This document shows positions 26,434 to 39,183 of a DNA stretch of 64,000 nucleotides, in pieces; position 1 is the first letter of the stretch, and the number at the start of each line of letters is the position of its first letter. This DNA is from Chloroflexota bacterium (lineage in GTDB: Bacteria > Chloroflexota > UBA11872): assembly GCA_022826485.1 (NCBI GenBank), contig JAJDUU010000005.1, forward strand, positions 1 through 64,000. The letters run 5' to 3'. The position numbers were made by a program, and so were the translations under genes. The notes under the pieces were generated by a model that ran no database searches, was not told the DNA's origin, and saw only the letters and a program-made list of their open reading frames with translations.

Positions 26434-29262
26434 ATGTCAAGTCTGCTTCGCAGGGCCATCGCGGGCCTGCTGATCCTAGCCGTCGCGGGCGGTGTCGCCG
26501 CCTTTCTGATCATTCGCTTGGAGGTCTTCCAGGCCGAGGAAGAGGCGCCGCCAATAACCGCAAGTGTCGAGCGCCGGGACCTGGTCAGCACGCTCGCCGT
26601 GATTGGCAACGTCGACTTCGGCAACACGGTGGCGCTGGGATTCGGGCAGTCCGGCATCCTGCGGGATCTGAAAGTCGAGCCCGGTCAGCTGATTCCAGCC
26701 GGAACGGTGCTGGCCCAGCTCGATGTCGTCGATCTCGAGCGAGCCGTGGACGACGCCGCGTCCGACCTGCGGCAAGCCGAGTTGCAGCTCGCCAAGCTGC
26801 TCCGACCGGCGGACGCGGCCGACGCCGAACGCGCCGAGCTGGACGTGGAGGAAGCGCACGCGGCGCTCGACGATCTGCTGACCCCGGTGAGCGCGTCGGA
26901 CCTCGCCGCCGCCGAGGCGGCAGTGATCTCGGCACAGATCAGCTACGACCGCGCCGTGAAAGACCTCGAGGACCTTCAGGCGGGACCGTCGGCGCTCGAT
27001 CTGATCGAAGCCGAGGGCGCGATTGCTTCGGCGCAAGCCAGCCTGGCAAGCGCCGAGCTGGGCGTGCAGGAGCTGCTGGACGAGCCGTCAGTCGCCGCGA
27101 TGGCGGACGCCGAAGGCGCGCTCGAGTCCGCCCGCTCCAGCGTCGCCAACGCCAAGGACGCGCTGGCGACGCTGCTGGAAGACCCGAGCGCGAACGACGT
27201 GGCCAACGCCGAGCTCAAGCTGCGGTCGGCGCGCGCGGCGTTCGCCGAGGCTGAGGATCAACTGGCCACGCTGCGCGCCGGCGCCACCCAGGCTGACATC
27301 GACGAGGCCGCCGCCGGCGTGGTCGCCGCCCGTGCCGCGCTGGCCGAGGTGGAAGAGGATCTGGCGGCGCTGACCGCCGATCCAACGGCGGACGAGATGG
27401 CCGACGCCGCGAACGCCGTGCAGAGCGCAAGCGCCGGCCTGCTGCAAGCACAAGCGTCGCTCGACACGCTGATCACCGGACCGACGGTCGCCGAGCTCCA
27501 GGACGCACGCGACCAGATCGCCACGGCGCAGGCCACCCTCGACAGCGCCAGACGAGCCGCCGACGAGGCGCCCGCCAACCAGATCGAGGTGCTCGCCGCC
27601 GCCGAGTCGAGCTACGAGTCCGCACGGGCCACGCTGCTTTCGGCGCACGAGACACTCGCCGAGGTGCGGTTCGACGGATCCACGGAGCAGCAGATCGAAG
27701 CGGCGGAGGCCCGAGTGCGGTCCGCCGAGGCCGGGCTGGAATCCGCCGCCCGGAAGCTCAGCGAGGCGCAGGCGGGACCCGATTGGGCCGCACTCAACGA
27801 GGCCATCGCCGCCGGCGAGCGGGGTCTTGCCGCCGCGCACCGTCGGCTGGCCGAGCTCCAGGAAGCCCCGACCGAGGCGGACCTCGCCGAGGCTCGGGCA
27901 AACGTGGCCCTCGCCCAGGGATCGCTGCGCGATGCCGAAGAGAATCAACGCTCCCTGATCGAGGGACCGGAGGTCACCGAGGTCGCCACCCAGCAAGCCG
28001 CCGTCAGGACCGCGCGGGCGGCGCTGGCATCCGCCCAGGAGCGGCTGTCCGAGCTCACCGATGGTCCGAGTGCCGTCGAAATTGCCGTGCAGGAAGCCGC
28101 CGTGGCCGAGGCGCGGCAGGTGATCGCGGACGCAGAGACCGAGTTGGCCGACCTTCTCGCCGAACCATCCGACATCGATGTCGATGCGCAGGAGAGCGCC
28201 ATCGACGTCGCGTCGCACAACCTCACCGCCGCCGAGGCTCGATTGCAGGACCTCTTCGCCGACCCGGACGCCGCCGAGTTGCTCCGTGAGCAAGCGGGAC
28301 TGCGGTCGGCGCAACTGTCACTCGAAGCGGCCCGGCTGCGGCTGGACGAGTTGCGGGCGAGCCCCGATCCAACCGAGGTCCGGCTCGCGGAACAGGCCGT
28401 GCGGGCGGCCGAGTTGTCCCTGGCCGACGCGCAGGCGCGGCAAAAGGAGCTGCACGAGGGACCCTCCGCGCTGGAGATTCTCCGAGCGGAAAACACCATC
28501 CGCAGGGCCGTGCTGGGTCTGGCCGACGTGCAGGCTCCGCCGGATGCGCTGGACGTGGAGCAAAGCGAGCTGGCTGTGACGGATGCCGAGCGGCGACTGG
28601 CAGCCGCCCAGGAGGACCTGGCCGACGCCCTGATCGTGGCGCCGTTCGCCAGCGTCGTGCTCGAGGTGAACGGGCAAGCCGGGCTTCAGGCGCCCGAAAC
28701 CGTGGTCACGCTGGCCGAGGCGGCGTCGATCCACGTGCTCGTCAACGTCGATGAGTCCGACATCGGGCTCGTCAGGCTGGGCCAGTCGGTGACGCTCGAG
28801 TTCGAGGCCCTGGGCGGGGCAGTCTTCGCCGGCGCCGTCATCCATCGCGGTCAGCAGGGCGAAGCGTCGCAGGGGCTGGTGACCTACCCGGTCCAGATTG
28901 GATTTACATCGCCCGATCCTCGACTGCTGAGCGGGCTGACGGCCGATGTCTCGATCGTGCTGGCCGAGTCCACCGGCGCCCTCGCCATCCCGCGGCAGGC
29001 CCTGCAGACCGTTGGGGCCCGGTCGTTCGTGAGCGTGCTTGGCCCGGACGGCGTCATCCAACAGCAACCCGTCACGGTCGGACTGCAGGATGAGCTGTTC
29101 GTCGAGGTGCTCGACGGTCTGGTCGAGGGCGAGGCCGTCGTCATCACCGGCGCGGCCGTGGCCGGATTCCAACTGCCGCAACTGCCCGCCGGCTTCACGC
29201 CGGGTCAGTTCAGACCCGGGCAATTCGGTGGCGGCGGATTTCGCGGCCCTGGCGGCGGCTAG
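26434..29262 (+). CDS. Giant HlyD/MacA-type adaptor with ~18-19 copies of a 33-residue helical repeat
   Basis: This 942-residue membrane-fusion protein is over twice the usual 350-450 residues. An N-terminal helix ([20 protein letters not shown]) anchors it. A lipoyl/barrel-sandwich half ([20 protein letters not shown]) follows, and then from about nt 26800 to 28630 a run of near-exact 33-residue units, each starting near a G/D-P-S/T and ending in L. Units such as [20 protein letters not shown] and [20 protein letters not shown] show the pattern with Ala/Glu helices. The second lipoyl half and beta-barrel domain come last, with a Gly/Pro/Phe tail. It is co-transcribed with the ABC ATPase and permease (stop/start overlap by 1 bp, TAGTG). 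In a monoderm-like cell, a long helical stalk would span the envelope. Confidence 0.83.
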
Positions 29263-33871: not shown

Positions 33872-34852
33872 CTAGCCCGTGGCCGCTGCCAGCTTCGCCC
33901 GCGACATCTGCGCCGCGACCTTGATGGCGTGGTCCAGGCTGTCTTCGCGTGCGCGTCCTTCGCCCGCGCGGCCGTAGGCGGTGCCGTGGTCCACGCTGGT
34001 GCGGATGATCGGCATGCCCACCGATACGTTGATGCCGTCGAAGAATCCCGCGGTCTTGACCGCCACGTGGCCCTGGTCGTGATACATGGCCACGATGCCG
34101 TCGAACCGACCGTCGATGGCCTTGTTGTAGACCGTGTCGCCCGGCTCGGGTCCGGTCACGTCCAGGCCTTCGGCCCGCGCCGCTTCAATGGCGGGCAGGA
34201 TCTCGTCCGCGTCTTCGTCGCCGAACAGCCGGTCCTCGCCCGCGTGGGGATTGAGCCCATTGACGGCGATGCGCGGCTGCTCGAAGCCCAGGAGCAGCAG
34301 CGACTCGTGCAGCAGCCGGATGCAGTGCAGCACGTTGTCGCGCGTGACCCGCTCGATGGCCTCGCGCAGTGAGACGTGCGTGCTGTTGTGAATCACCCGC
34401 AGCGTCGGCGCCACCAGCAGCATGCGCGTGCCCGGCGTCTCGGTCAGATCCGCCAACAGCTCGGTGTGGCCGGCGTAGTGATAGCCGGCGCGGTTGATGG
34501 CTTCCTTGTGGATCGGCCCGGTGACGATGGCCGCTGCCCGACCGTCCATGACCAGCTTGGCGGCCTCGATCACGGCCTCGGCGGAGGAGCGCCCGCCCTC
34601 GACCGTCACCTGCTTGAAGGGCAGGTCGCTCAGGTCCTCGCCCCAAGGATCGTAGACCTCGATCGCGCCGTGCACGTAGGCGGCCGATTCCGGGTCGGCG
34701 GCGCGCACGTCCAGGTCCGATTGCAGGATGCCGGCCATGCGCTCGATTGCCGAGACGCTGCCCACGGCGAGCGGTCGGCAGATGTCGTAGGTCTCGGGCT
34801 TGGCAAGGGATTTGATCAGGATTTCCGGCCCGACTCCCGTCGGGTCGCCCAT
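33872..34852 (-). CDS. pdxA: PdxA-family dehydrogenase, likely 4-phospho-threonate/erythronate dehydrogenase (PdxA2)
   Basis: The 326-residue frame from ATG 34852 begins MGDPTGVGPEI. PdxA motifs run through it: TGPIHKEAINRAG, HTELLAD, the GLNPHAGE metal-ligand loop, and DGIVAMYHDQGHV with its His. Residues upstream (PLLAIT) continue the frame and match the first PdxA strand, so the true start is probably beyond 34852; no ATG, GTG or TTG occurs in that extension (see finding). It lies next to a DUF1537 kinase gene, 141 bp away. That neighbour is the known signature of PdxA2, which oxidatively decarboxylates 4-phospho-D-threonate or erythronate to dihydroxyacetone phosphate (Zhang et al., 2016). 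No pyridoxine pathway partner is present, so PdxA2 is favoured over vitamin B6 synthesis. Confidence 0.88.
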   Translation of the reverse strand: MGDPTGVGPEILIKSLAKPETYDICRPLAVGSVSAIERMAGILQSDLDVRAADPESAAYVHGAIEVYDPWGEDLSDLPFKQVTVEGGRSSAEAVIEAAKLVMDGRAAAIVTGPIHKEAINRAGYHYAGHTELLADLTETPGTRMLLVAPTLRVIHNSTHVSLREAIERVTRDNVLHCIRLLHESLLLLGFEQPRIAVNGLNPHAGEDRLFGDEDADEILPAIEAARAEGLDVTGPEPGDTVYNKAIDGRFDGIVAMYHDQGHVAVKTAGFFDGINVSVGMPIIRTSVDHGTAYGRAGEGRAREDSLDHAIKVAAQMSRAKLAAATG

Positions 34853-34993
34853 GGTGATGGCGAGCAGCGGTCGGTCGGCGTCGGCGGTTGCGGTGGCGAT
34901 GCGGGGCTCCTTTGACGTGCGCCCTCGAAGGCGCTCGGCGGCAAGTGTAGTCAGGCCGAGAGGTGTGTGCGCGGGCGGGTTGCGGTTCGCCGG

Positions 34994-36208
34994 CTACGGC
35001 GGTCCAATCGTGCGCAGGGCGTCCACGAGCGCGGTGGGTCCGCCCATGACGCCGGCCTTTGTCACCACCGGCCATCCCTGGCCGCGTCTCGAGGTGAACA
35101 CGCCGTAGGGCACGCCCCAGCCAATCTCACCGGCAAGCTCGATGGCGTCGGCCGGGATCGCGGCGAATGCGGCGCGCGCCGTGTCGCCGCCCGAGAGCAC
35201 GAGTCCGATGGGGTGTGTGCCGCGCCAGATGGTGGCCGTGAACTGGCTGACCAGCGCCAGCTGCGCGGCCTGGGCTTCCGGGGAGGGCGCCTTGACGGGA
35301 ATCACGGCATCCACCAGCGCGGGCCGGTCGAGCGACCACCCGGCGCGCACGGACGCGGCCACCATGATGGAGCTGCCGGGTTGCTGCGGCAGCGGAATCG
35401 GTCTGATCCCAAGCGTGGCCGCCGCCTCGGCAAATTGCTGCTGCGTGTGCTCCATCGGCGATCCGATGATCGCGAGCGTGCGTGTCGTGCGCGACACCTC
35501 GGGAACCGGCTGGGGAAAGGACGCGGTGCACCGCGCCAGGGACGCGGCCAGCCCCGCCGATCCGGCGCTGACCTGCATGAGATCGGCGGCATCCATGGCA
35601 ACCGCCACGCACTCGAGATCGGCATCCTCCGCAATGTCGGGCAGGATCACGTTCACGCCCGCGTCGCGGGCTTCACGCATCGCGTCGGCGAGTGCGGCCG
35701 TGCTCGACCGCACGGTTTCCGTGGAGATGACGCGGCACGTCAAGGGAGAGGTGGACTCGATCAGGGTCGGGATGTGTGACTCCAGCGCCGGAGTCACGGG
35801 GTCGCGGCCGGGTTCGGCCTCGGAAACGGGCGTGCCCCAGAGCGCCAGCCTGCCGGACTCCGTGGTCCGGCCGCCCGAGGGGAATGCCGGCGTGTACACC
35901 AGCGTCGTAACGCCCGAGCCGTCGAGCGCCGCCTGGAGCTCCGCCGCGATGTTCCCGCGAAGCAGCGAGTCGGTCTTCTTGTAGATCAGCGCGGCGGGGG
36001 CGGCCGCGTTTACGGCGCCGCGCACGGCGTCGTACGCCGCGGACGCATCGAGGTGTCGCGACGCGGTGCTCATCGCTGCCGCCTCGGCGTCCCGCGGCCA
36101 GGCGCCGTCGCGGGTGGAGACCAGGGTGCGGCGTCCGGCATTCCGAAACTGCAGCGCCGTGTCCAGGGCGCCGGTCAAGTCGTCGGCGATGATCGCCCAC
36201 TGCGACAT
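34994..36208 (-). CDS. Four-carbon acid sugar kinase (DUF1537 family, threonate/erythronate kinase-like)
   Basis: This 404-residue kinase has the N-terminal DUF1537 half with WAIIADDLTGALDTA and the KKTDSLLRGN motif, and the C-terminal half with VLSGGDTARAAF and TKAGVMGG (usual form TKAGGFG). The family (OtnK/DtnK/DenK) phosphorylates 3-oxo-tetronate, D-threonate or D-erythronate at O4. The gene is immediately upstream of pdxA in transcription order and 3 bp after larA, so the three are probably one operon. The acid sugar used is not determinable from sequence. Confidence 0.87.
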   Translation of the reverse strand: MSQWAIIADDLTGALDTALQFRNAGRRTLVSTRDGAWPRDAEAAAMSTASRHLDASAAYDAVRGAVNAAAPAALIYKKTDSLLRGNIAAELQAALDGSGVTTLVYTPAFPSGGRTTESGRLALWGTPVSEAEPGRDPVTPALESHIPTLIESTSPLTCRVISTETVRSSTAALADAMREARDAGVNVILPDIAEDADLECVAVAMDAADLMQVSAGSAGLAASLARCTASFPQPVPEVSRTTRTLAIIGSPMEHTQQQFAEAAATLGIRPIPLPQQPGSSIMVAASVRAGWSLDRPALVDAVIPVKAPSPEAQAAQLALVSQFTATIWRGTHPIGLVLSGGDTARAAFAAIPADAIELAGEIGWGVPYGVFTSRRGQGWPVVTKAGVMGGPTALVDALRTIGPP

Positions 36209-36211
36209 GGG

Positions 36212-37483
36212 CTAGTTCGTCAGGGGGAGCGTATCGGGCGCGTGCGTCAGCACGCCCACGGACGCGTTGGCGCGGGCAGTGGCGGTTGCCATGTCGAGCG
36301 CCGCTTCAACTGTGTCCGCCCGGTCGAACGCCAGGGCGCGGGCGTCCTCGCGCGCCACGCCGTCCGACACCAGGATGATCCGCGCGTGCTCGCGAACGCG
36401 CGCCCAGGCGGTTGCCAGCGATGCGGCCACCGGGTCGTCGAACTCGCCCTTTTCATACCGGGTGATGAGTGCCTCGGCCGGCGACGCCGCGTAGTCGAGC
36501 ATCTCCGGGTGCATCACGGCCACGCCCTCGGGGCACGGCGTCACCACGATGATCGTGCCTCCCGGTCGCACCATCATGGCCGCCGGGTAGAGGCTCTTGT
36601 GCGCCTGCCAAAATTCGATGTCGCAGGGATGCGAGCCGGCGACGACGATATCGAGCCCCTTCGGCGCCGGGACGCCGTAGATGCGGCGGGCGTCCGCCAC
36701 GGCGCGTCGATAGGCGCCGGGCGTGCTTCCGAAGCGCGCCGTGACGAGCCGGCCATCGCTGTTGAGCGTGACGTTGAGGACGTGGTGCATGCCGGACCGT
36801 TCGGCGATGTGCTCCATCTCCCGGCGCACCGGCGTGACCACCTGGCCGAGCAGCGGCTCGACGGCGCGCGCGCTGAACATGTGGGTCGCCGCGGTGGTGG
36901 CCGCGCCCGACACGCCCGGTTGCACGATCTTGGCCCCCGCCGAGAACCCGGCGATGTGATGGGGCACGACCGCTCCGGTGCCGATCACCAGGTCGCGTTC
37001 GAACAGCCCGGCGTTCACATGCACCGGCGTGCCGTCGGGCGTCGTGCCAAGGTCGCGCAGCGGGGCGACCGTGTGGTCGTGCTGGGTGACTTCGACCCGG
37101 GCGAGCACCTCGTCGCCCAGCTTGGCGCGAACCTCGCGCGGCGTCATTGGACGGTGTGTGCCGAGCGCGATCATCACCTGCACCGCGTCGTCGGGCAGTC
37201 CGCCGGCGCGCAGCTCCTCCAGGATCGCCGGCACGAGCAAATGCGTCGGTGTTTCGCGGGTGATGTCGTCCACCAGGATCAGCGCCGAGCGAGCGTCGCG
37301 GGCCGCCGTGCGCAGCCGCGGGCTGTCAACCGGGTTCGCCAGCGCTTCGCGGATCATGCGCTCGGGATCCGTGGCCGGCGCGGCCGGGTGCGGCGTGAAG
37401 ACGCCGGCCAGCACGGCGTCGTGGTTGACCTGAAAGCGCAACTCCTCCGCGCCGTAGGGAATCGTGACGAACTCGGCTGGCAC
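36212..37483 (-). CDS. LarA-like nickel-pincer racemase/epimerase
   Basis: This 423-residue protein matches the LarA/DUF2088 fold. A DDITRETPTHLL segment, GTHRPMTPREV, a VTQHDH catalytic-His region and the GFSAGAKIVQPGVSG loop with the Lys that carries the nickel pincer in LarA are present, with a C-terminal domain PCPEGVAVMHPEM. LarA-type enzymes racemise or epimerise at C2 of 2-hydroxyacids by hydride transfer. The larB, larC and larE genes that make the cofactor are not in the window. It overlaps neither neighbour but sits 3 bp from the DUF1537 kinase, so its substrate is likely a tetronate or a related hydroxyacid. Confidence 0.83.
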   Translation of the reverse strand: MPAEFVTIPYGAEELRFQVNHDAVLAGVFTPHPAAPATDPERMIREALANPVDSPRLRTAARDARSALILVDDITRETPTHLLVPAILEELRAGGLPDDAVQVMIALGTHRPMTPREVRAKLGDEVLARVEVTQHDHTVAPLRDLGTTPDGTPVHVNAGLFERDLVIGTGAVVPHHIAGFSAGAKIVQPGVSGAATTAATHMFSARAVEPLLGQVVTPVRREMEHIAERSGMHHVLNVTLNSDGRLVTARFGSTPGAYRRAVADARRIYGVPAPKGLDIVVAGSHPCDIEFWQAHKSLYPAAMMVRPGGTIIVVTPCPEGVAVMHPEMLDYAASPAEALITRYEKGEFDDPVAASLATAWARVREHARIILVSDGVAREDARALAFDRADTVEAALDMATATARANASVGVLTHAPDTLPLTN

Positions 37484-37506: not shown

Positions 37507-38331
37507 CTACGCGGCCACCACTTGATTGCGGAGCACGCCGATCTTCTCCAGCTCGATTTCGACCGAGTCGCCAGGCGCGAGCGGGCCGACGCCTTCAGGC
37601 GTACCCGTGAAGATGCAGTCCCCGGGTTGGAGCGTCAGGCCCTGCGCCAGATAGGTGACGAGCGACGCAACGTCGAACAGCATGTCGGAGGTGTTGTTGT
37701 CCTGCTTCGTCTCGCCGTTGACGCGTGCCTGGATGCGCAGGTTGTTGGGGTCGATGTCGGTCACGATGCAGGGACCCAGCGGCGCAAAGGTATCCAAGCC
37801 CTTGCCCATCAGGATGCACCCCATGGCCATCTCGGCGAATTGCAGCTTGCGGGCGCTCACGTCGTTGCCGCAGGTGTAGCCCAGGACGTAGTCGAGCGCG
37901 TCGGCGACGTCGACGTTGCGGCAGGTCTTGCCCATCACCACCACGAGCTCCGCCTCGTAGTGGACCTCGCCGAACGGCTCCTCCTGGAGCGCGGGATCGT
38001 TGATGGCGTGGCGGAAGCCGTCCGCTCGGGGCAGCACGATGTCGTCCCCCGGACCGCTGATGGCCGTCGTCGGCTTGATGAACAGCATGGGCATCTTCGG
38101 CACGCCGCTCTCGCCCACGGTCTCCATGATGTGTTCCATGTAGTTCAGGCCGACCCCAATGGCTTTGCCCGGCTCCACCGGCGCCAGCAACTTGAGGTCG
38201 TCGACCGAACCGACGGGATCGCCTACCGAGTAGTCCCCAAAGATGTCCCCGTCGATCGCGCGGACGGTGCCGTCGTCATCGAGTGAGCCGTAGCAAGCGC
38301 CGGAATCGTGGGCATATCGGACGATCCGCAT
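37507..38331 (-). CDS. Fumarylacetoacetate hydrolase-family protein
   Basis: This 274-residue FAH-fold enzyme has KAIGVGLNYMEHI, the metal-binding E-x-E region HYEAELVVVMGKTC, the TCGNDVSARKLQ strand and GDCIFTGTPEGVGPL. Members act as fumarylpyruvate/acylpyruvate hydrolases, decarboxylases or 2-keto-3-deoxy acid dehydratases. It lies 23 bp before larA on the same strand and is probably the second gene of the acid-sugar operon. A dehydratase or C-C hydrolase role for a keto-acid would fit but is inference. Confidence 0.88.
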   Translation of the reverse strand: MRIVRYAHDSGACYGSLDDDGTVRAIDGDIFGDYSVGDPVGSVDDLKLLAPVEPGKAIGVGLNYMEHIMETVGESGVPKMPMLFIKPTTAISGPGDDIVLPRADGFRHAINDPALQEEPFGEVHYEAELVVVMGKTCRNVDVADALDYVLGYTCGNDVSARKLQFAEMAMGCILMGKGLDTFAPLGPCIVTDIDPNNLRIQARVNGETKQDNNTSDMLFDVASLVTYLAQGLTLQPGDCIFTGTPEGVGPLAPGDSVEIELEKIGVLRNQVVAA

Positions 38332-38403: not shown

Positions 38404-39183
38404 CTATTTCGCGTTTACGAAGTCCAGGATCGCCGCGCGACACTCGTCCGGCGCCTCCAGGTGCGGCCAGTGGCCCGCGTGCGCAACATTGACCTGGGTG
38501 GCATTGGTCGCGCGGGCGGTGAGGATGGCCGCGTCGTCCTCGGTGACGAAGGGGTCGGCGTCGCCGCGCAAGACCAGAATGGGCGCCCTGATCGTGCGGG
38601 ACGCCTCCAGATACTCCGCGCCGATCATGGCGCGCAAGCATCCGGCGACCACGCCGGCGGCGGCGAGCGCCGCCGCCTCGCACATCGACGACAGGTGTTC
38701 GTCGGCCAACTCTTCGACAAGGCCGCGCGTCAGCCAGCGCCTGGCGGCATCGGCATCCCAGCCGCGCATTTTGATTCGCTCGTGCACCGTCCAGAGGCTG
38801 TGCACGTCGCGGACAAACGCGCCCGACCCGAGGAGGACCAGGCGCTGGACGTGGCTGGGATATCGCGCCGCGAAGCACAGGGCGACGAGTCCGCCGTAGT
38901 CGTGAGCCACGATCGGAATCGGATCGAGCTGATTGGCCTGGTGCAGCGAGTGATGCAGCAGCGTGGCGGCCTGGTCGATGTCGCCCGCGAAGCCCGCGGG
39001 CGGGCTCTGGCCGAAGCCGGGAAACTCGAGCATCAGCGCGCGCCGGTCCTCGGGAAGCCCCTGGGTCACCAACTCCCAAACGACCGCGCCGGGCCCCAGG
39101 CCGTGCAAGAACAGAATGCCCGACCCCCGCACGCCCGTGGTTGCCAGGTTGATGCGCTGTCCGCGCACCTGAAGCATTGGCAC
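38404..39183 (-). CDS. Alpha/beta hydrolase with Asp nucleophile
   Basis: This 259-residue alpha/beta hydrolase has an oxyanion HGLGPG motif at 27-32. The nucleophile elbow AHDYGGLVAL puts Asp95 where lipases have Ser, as in epoxide hydrolases, haloalkane or fluoroacetate dehalogenases. An acid lies in VLRGDADPFV, and the catalytic His is in NVAHAGHWPHL near the C-terminus. It is the first gene of the minus-strand block leading to pdxA, 72 bp before the FAH gene. The substrate is unknown. Confidence 0.83.
   Translation of the reverse strand: MPMLQVRGQRINLATTGVRGSGILFLHGLGPGAVVWELVTQGLPEDRRALMLEFPGFGQSPPAGFAGDIDQAATLLHHSLHQANQLDPIPIVAHDYGGLVALCFAARYPSHVQRLVLLGSGAFVRDVHSLWTVHERIKMRGWDADAARRWLTRGLVEELADEHLSSMCEAAALAAAGVVAGCLRAMIGAEYLEASRTIRAPILVLRGDADPFVTEDDAAILTARATNATQVNVAHAGHWPHLEAPDECRAAILDFVNAK

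Follow-up and report, generated by a model that had tools for sequence, protein, structure and literature searches.

The larA-like gene at positions 36212-37483 of contig JAJDUU010000005.1 from a Chloroflexota bacterium (the window is the whole analysed stretch of 64,000 nucleotides) is predicted to encode a C2-epimerase of a four-carbon sugar acid that depends on the nickel-pincer nucleotide (NPN) cofactor and, most simply, interconverts D-erythronate and D-threonate. We put the probability of this reading at roughly 0.58; its key element, a tetronate epimerised at C2, is moderately favoured, and we infer which acid is used, in which direction it flows and what the enzyme does in the cell from the evidence that follows. 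The gene belongs to a three-gene array:

33872-34852, minus strand: pdxA2, PdxA2-type 4-phosphotetronate dehydrogenase (PdxA 322 bits; first ATG at 34852)
34994-36208, minus strand: DUF1537 kinase, D-threonate-kinase-like (SBD_N 164 bits, NBD_C 53 bits)
36212-37483, minus strand: LarA-like protein of 423 amino acids with a GTG start (Lar_N 184 bits, LarA_C 43 bits)

All five Pfam domain scores exceed the curated cut-offs, and the open frames and domains place the three genes, all on the minus strand, where the first-pass annotation of this DNA had put them, with the claimed 3-bp gap (36209-36211) between the larA-like and kinase genes.

Conservation of this neighbourhood, chosen beforehand as a test on which the epimerase proposal could fail, held strongly. 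Searching GTDB genomes with a profile built from DUF1537-linked LarA proteins retrieved 50 loci, and the profile scores are bimodal, with intact clade frames at 518 bits or more and all other proteins below 400. When 68 proteins were placed in a maximum-likelihood tree (a quick method with midpoint rooting, relied on for the clade alone), the clade came out as monophyletic, with a Shimodaira-Hasegawa-like approximate likelihood ratio test (SH-aLRT) value of 97, and LarA_Lp, LarA_Tt, LarA_Ip and Mar2 all fall outside the clade. Of the 47 fetched clade loci, 33 encode DUF1537 and/or PdxA next to larA (DUF1537 in 32, PdxA in 28), as against 0 of the 29 non-clade LarA proteins examined; among the 32 clade loci outside the window's family, DUF1537 is found in 18, PdxA in 14 and either in 19. 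The partner genes lie on the same strand as larA, often spaced by 0-50 bp, and come in four orders (larA-DUF1537-pdxA, pdxA-larA-DUF1537, DUF1537-pdxA-larA and larA-pdxA-DUF1537). The linkage is seen in Chloroflexota/Thermomicrobiota, Negativicutes (Sporomusa, Pelosinus), Syntrophaceae, Hydrogenedentota, Spirochaetes and one Njordarchaeota bin; the locus L067 carries an Acidobacteriota label but hardly differs from the Syntrophales locus L065, which comes from a site of similar name (Sandtown), so that it is probably mis-binned and adds no phylum to this list. Chance adjacency is ruled out by this conservation together with the non-clade control.

A sample of 400 genomes from the phylum gives the same picture: DUF1537 is present in 20 of the 21 genomes with a clade LarA, directly adjoining larA in all 20, and in 47 of the 379 genomes lacking one (Fisher p ~4e-16, with relatedness not corrected for). 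In the sole clade genome of this sample without DUF1537, the contig stops just after larA. Thus, it is highly probable that the clade, hitherto unassigned, is distinct and functionally tied to sugar-acid catabolism, and epimerisation at one carbon of four-carbon acids appears probable because the clade keeps the company of DUF1537 and PdxA across distant bacteria and at least one archaeal bin.

Alignment to solved structures indicates that the LarA-like protein retains D72, R75, H108, H174, K184, H200, Q295 and K298 (LarA_Lp numbering), which serve catalysis (D72, H108, H174 and K298 among them) or NPN binding (among them R75, K184 and H200) and are invariant in all 50 rows of the clade alignment. 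The AlphaFold2 model (predicted local distance difference test score, pLDDT, 95) matches, over most of the chain, LarA_Ip (9eia, Z 52), LarA_Lp (Z 50), Mar2 (Z 42) and GntE2 (Z 36), and the structural comparison returned solely the known LarA family above background. Domains and fold (Z 50-52 for the closest matches) thus agree in assigning the protein to the LarA superfamily. The genome also encodes larC (C19:20701-21831) and larB (C19:21873-22250) side by side, as well as larE (C20:8902-9681). Because the catalytic and NPN-binding residues are kept, the modelled fold is that of LarA and larB, larC and larE are all present, the protein is very likely a working NPN enzyme. Three more LarA-type proteins are encoded in the same genome (C50:1335-2513, C28:46577-47128 and C42:2097-2525), the first of which groups near the LarA_Ip/lactate branch.

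The clade has a specificity signature of its own. Among the 50 aligned rows, H175 is found in 49, I176 in 50, W294 in 50, H297 in 49, D353 in 49, a small residue (A/S/G) at 358 in 50, and L359 in 44; the window protein carries H175, I176, W294, H297, S358 and L359. The signatures reported for positions 175, 176, 358 and 359 (PMC11770544) are F-F-W-E/Q for lactate racemase (LAR), Y-F-H/Q-T for 2-hydroxyglutarate racemase (HGR) and E-V-A-H for gluconate epimerase (GntE), with H/Q-K at 358/359 in malate racemase (MAR) and F/Y358 in the hydrophobic racemase class (HHR). The clade signature fits none of these: H-I-S-L in the window protein departs from the HGR pattern, A/S/G in every clade row takes the place of the HHR F/Y358, and W294 and the small residue at 358 alone agree with GntE. 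A Trp in alpha-11 and an Ala or Val in alpha-14 are described as marks of groups 18-20, the sugar-acid epimerases (PMC7583248), and the clade has in common with these groups the alpha-11 Trp (294) and, at 358 in alpha-14, a residue of small size. The small residue at 358 could give room to a polyol chain, and H175 and H297 could contact its hydroxyls. The D-gluconate 2-epimerase GntE (LarAH19/20, 4NAR) is alike in type, a sugar-acid C2-epimerase with the alpha-11 Trp and the small alpha-14 residue, but its loop reads E-V/S, its residue 359 is usually H, and it is 22% identical to the window protein over 366 residues; the hexonate-epimerase model gives the latter 74 bits (cut-off 500).

The two partner proteins are compatible with a tetronate pathway. 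The kinase contains both domains characteristic of DUF1537 (SBD_N and NBD_C), and its best kinase model is D-threonate kinase DtnK (NF047819; 198 bits, cut-off 450), compared with 93 bits for 3-oxo-tetronate kinase, likewise below cut-off; DUF1537 is present in a single copy in the genome. The dehydrogenase was called PdxA2 in the first-pass annotation, an identity sustained by the PdxA domain, by greater similarity to D-threonate-4-phosphate dehydrogenase (254-257 bits for the structures 6e85/2hi1) than to PdxA1, whose structures score below 200 bits, and by the conserved His159, His203 and His258, a triad that we take to be the metal site; the score against the PdxA2 model NF002891 is 288 bits, below the cut-off of 583. 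A role of this PdxA in vitamin B6 synthesis was considered and rejected as unlikely, because PdxJ is absent from the genome and PdxS is present. At the 5' end of pdxA2 (34840-34915, minus strand), no ATG, GTG or TTG occurs where translation likely begins. An in-frame ATC near 34900 is preceded at a distance of 6 nt by a perfect AAAGGAG and lies 16 codons upstream of the first ATG, and this arrangement is preserved in six genomes of the genus; the frame probably starts at about this point, and a conserved AUC start codon is possible.

D-threonate and D-erythronate differ at C2 only. By analogy with LarA, the equivalents of His108 and His174 would take turns deprotonating the 2-hydroxyl, while the C2 hydride would pass to NPN tethered to the Lys184 equivalent and return on the opposite face, so that C2 is inverted. 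The single DUF1537 kinase would then phosphorylate O4, and PdxA2 would oxidise C3 to a beta-keto acid that loses CO2 to yield dihydroxyacetone phosphate. Since PdxA2 acts at C3 and the C2 stereochemistry disappears en route to dihydroxyacetone phosphate, an epimerase is useful only with a C2-selective kinase or dehydrogenase; in that case, it would open one such enzyme pair to both epimers.

Tetronate pathways with a DUF1537 kinase and PdxA2, enzyme families in common with the window locus, were reportedly established by Zhang and colleagues in 2016 (cited in PMC10971088). Accounts of these pathways (PMC10971088, PMC7954711) mention no epimerase step, and the literature searched, which included few subscription papers and did not extend to the supplementary tables of the LarA surveys, where the group may be listed, yielded neither a LarA-DUF1537 link nor a threonate, erythronate or tetronate epimerase. 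The statement in the first-pass annotation that no such step has been described thus holds for this literature, but closely related chemistry was published in 2024: LarA enzymes of other classes epimerise 4-deoxy-threonate/erythronate at C2 (PMC11770544), that is, at the same stereocentre of a near-identical substrate. This is a side activity of lactate and hydrophobic racemases, with kcat/KM of at most a few hundred M-1 s-1, and true tetronates are absent from the substrates in the tables of that paper. It has also been noted that a nearby sugar kinase could point to a sugar epimerase (PMC7583248).

The operon probably extends upstream of larA by two more genes, so that the transcription unit may comprise five:

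37507-38331, minus strand: FAH-family gene, 23 bp upstream of larA
38404-39183, minus strand: alpha/beta-hydrolase gene, 72 bp beyond the FAH-family gene, possibly the first gene of the operon

The co-conservation of the FAH-family gene is limited to the window's family, and core membership of either gene is unsupported beyond it. The alpha/beta-hydrolase may be a lactonase.

Several observations weigh against a tetronate epimerase. The DUF1537 family includes both D-threonate and D-erythronate kinases (PMC10971088), so an epimerase is not strictly required, and the best NCBIfam match of the LarA-like protein is malate racemase LarAH6 (304 bits, cut-off 500). No sugar-acid gene is found in the stretch examined in 8 of the 47 clade loci, at least two of which end at contig ends; three relatives (G042, G197 and G252) have DUF1537 and no clade LarA was found in them; the Spirochaetes loci L072, L073 and L074, which combine a PrpR-type regulator, DUF1537, larA and a tripartite ATP-independent periplasmic (TRAP) transporter, lack an adjoining pdxA; and the epimerase leaves the roles of the FAH-family protein and the alpha/beta-hydrolase unexplained. 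Among the clade loci without a local DUF1537, the gene is present elsewhere in the genome for L062, L064, L066, L069, L071, L075, L082 and L092, and was not found in the genomes of L056, L058 and L065, although in the genome of L058 a truncated copy adjoins the larA of L078. On balance, the C2-epimerase proposed in the first-pass annotation stands as the leading and well-supported hypothesis, given the conserved neighbourhood, the intact machinery, larBCE, the PdxA2 type, the single DUF1537 and the signature of the clade, with D-threonate and D-erythronate as its simplest putative substrates.

The best surviving alternative, which we consider possible but unlikely, is a C2-epimerase whose substrate is a different 2,3-dihydroxy sugar acid or belongs to a different stereo-series (L-threonate/L-erythronate, a pentonate or a deoxypentonate), with kinase/PdxA2 and IlvD arms as alternative outlets. 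Six clade loci without DUF1537/PdxA encode an IlvD-family dehydratase adjoining larA or close to it, with both genes on one strand, and three further loci combine it with DUF1537/PdxA, giving nine in total. Examples of a dehydratase gene next to the clade larA are L064:1784-4820, L065:4272-7278, L066:2-1808, L067:3-2871 and L071:2533-5585. The Pelosinus propionicus locus (L062:623-7260) has the gene order dmpF-dmpG-ilvD-MFS-larA (MFS, major facilitator superfamily), again without DUF1537/PdxA; this is the set expected for an aldolase-cleaved 4-hydroxy-2-oxo acid and suggests a second route or another sugar acid. Some of the IlvD neighbours may be biosynthetic, given that IlvD is a housekeeping family and the three scanned all score above the dihydroxy-acid dehydratase cut-off. 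However, most clade members occur with DUF1537 and PdxA, two families for which the substrates characterised are four-carbon acids, and the window PdxA2 is nearer to D-threonate-4-phosphate dehydrogenase than to PdxA1. The dehydratase and the kinase/PdxA2 route both require a 2,3-dihydroxy acid, which independently supports a sugar acid as the substrate.

An ordinary malate, lactate or glycerate racemase, or one for another simple 2-hydroxy acid, present in the operon by accident, is improbable. The promiscuity of LarA enzymes (PMC11770544) and the top-scoring model, that of Mar2 (malate racemase, LarAH6, 6D6Z), speak for it, but the score is far under the cut-off and Mar2 lies outside the clade. 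The window protein has S and L in place of the H/Q358 and K359 of malate racemase, the HK/QK pair to which binding of the second carboxylate is attributed. The comparison with the lactate racemase LarA of L. plantarum (5HUQ/6C1W) is similar: fold (Z ~50), catalytic and NPN-binding residues and larBCE are alike, whereas identity in structural alignment is 24-26%, F/F/Y/V/W/T stand at the positions of H175/I176/W294/H297/S358/L359 in the window protein, the Phe-Phe-Trp and the E/Q359 of the lactate class are missing from the latter, and the genomic company is that of sugar-acid catabolism. Thus, signature and profile scores disfavour a malate or lactate racemase, as does a neighbourhood kept across phyla in several gene orders.

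Epimerisation of the kinase product, a 4-phosphorylated tetronate, instead of the free acid would produce identical gene linkage, and H175 and H297, which are specific to the clade, could contact a polar side chain; this is nonetheless very improbable, given that the side-chain positions hold no extra conserved Arg or Lys and the literature consulted on LarA enzymes reports no phosphorylated substrate. Inherited synteny without common function, to which the equally conserved flanking genes within the window's family might point, is largely refuted by other phyla keeping the gene set despite different flanks and four gene orders.

The transport and regulatory genes in clade loci vary. Several loci encode a TRAP transporter (DctP, DctQ, DctM) together with a PrpR-type sigma-54 regulator, and in others there is an RpiR-type regulator or an MFS transporter of the galactonate type. 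The TRAP binding protein of L068 (model of middling quality, pLDDT 76) is nearest to 4pdd/4pdh, with 38% identity; homologues of this type hold pantoate or erythronate (PMC11668362), a point in favour of the epimerase reading, although the ligand assignment is not firmly tied to 4pdd or 4pdh individually. Two loci also contain a second, non-clade LarA that falls near Mar2 in the tree (L064:8474-9778 and L066:6519-7781) and adjoins a TRAP transporter on the opposite strand.

Elsewhere in the window, positions 26434-29262 encode an unusually long protein of 942 amino acids that, on reading its translation, resembles a membrane-fusion adaptor and contains many segments, each about 30-50 residues long, that are similar to one another; it is followed first by an ABC transporter ATPase and then by an FtsX-like permease.

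Taken together, these observations slightly favour a dedicated nickel-dependent tetronate C2-epimerase that forms a separate LarA subfamily over bacteria and archaea and serves a kinase/PdxA2 or IlvD-type dehydratase route. Even a predicted function exists for just somewhat over half of LarA homologues (PMC11770544), and a coherent clade that has both a signature found in no other class and a conserved set of pathway neighbours offers a specific, readily testable substrate. The motif VPHHI...PCDIEFWQAHK could let annotators tell clade proteins from lactate and malate racemases. If the prediction is correct, an epimerase would be added to tetronate catabolism as a new enzymatic step in the breakdown of sugar acids, and the nickel-pincer cofactor would gain a new physiological use, extending the range of natural substrates of nickel-pincer enzymes.

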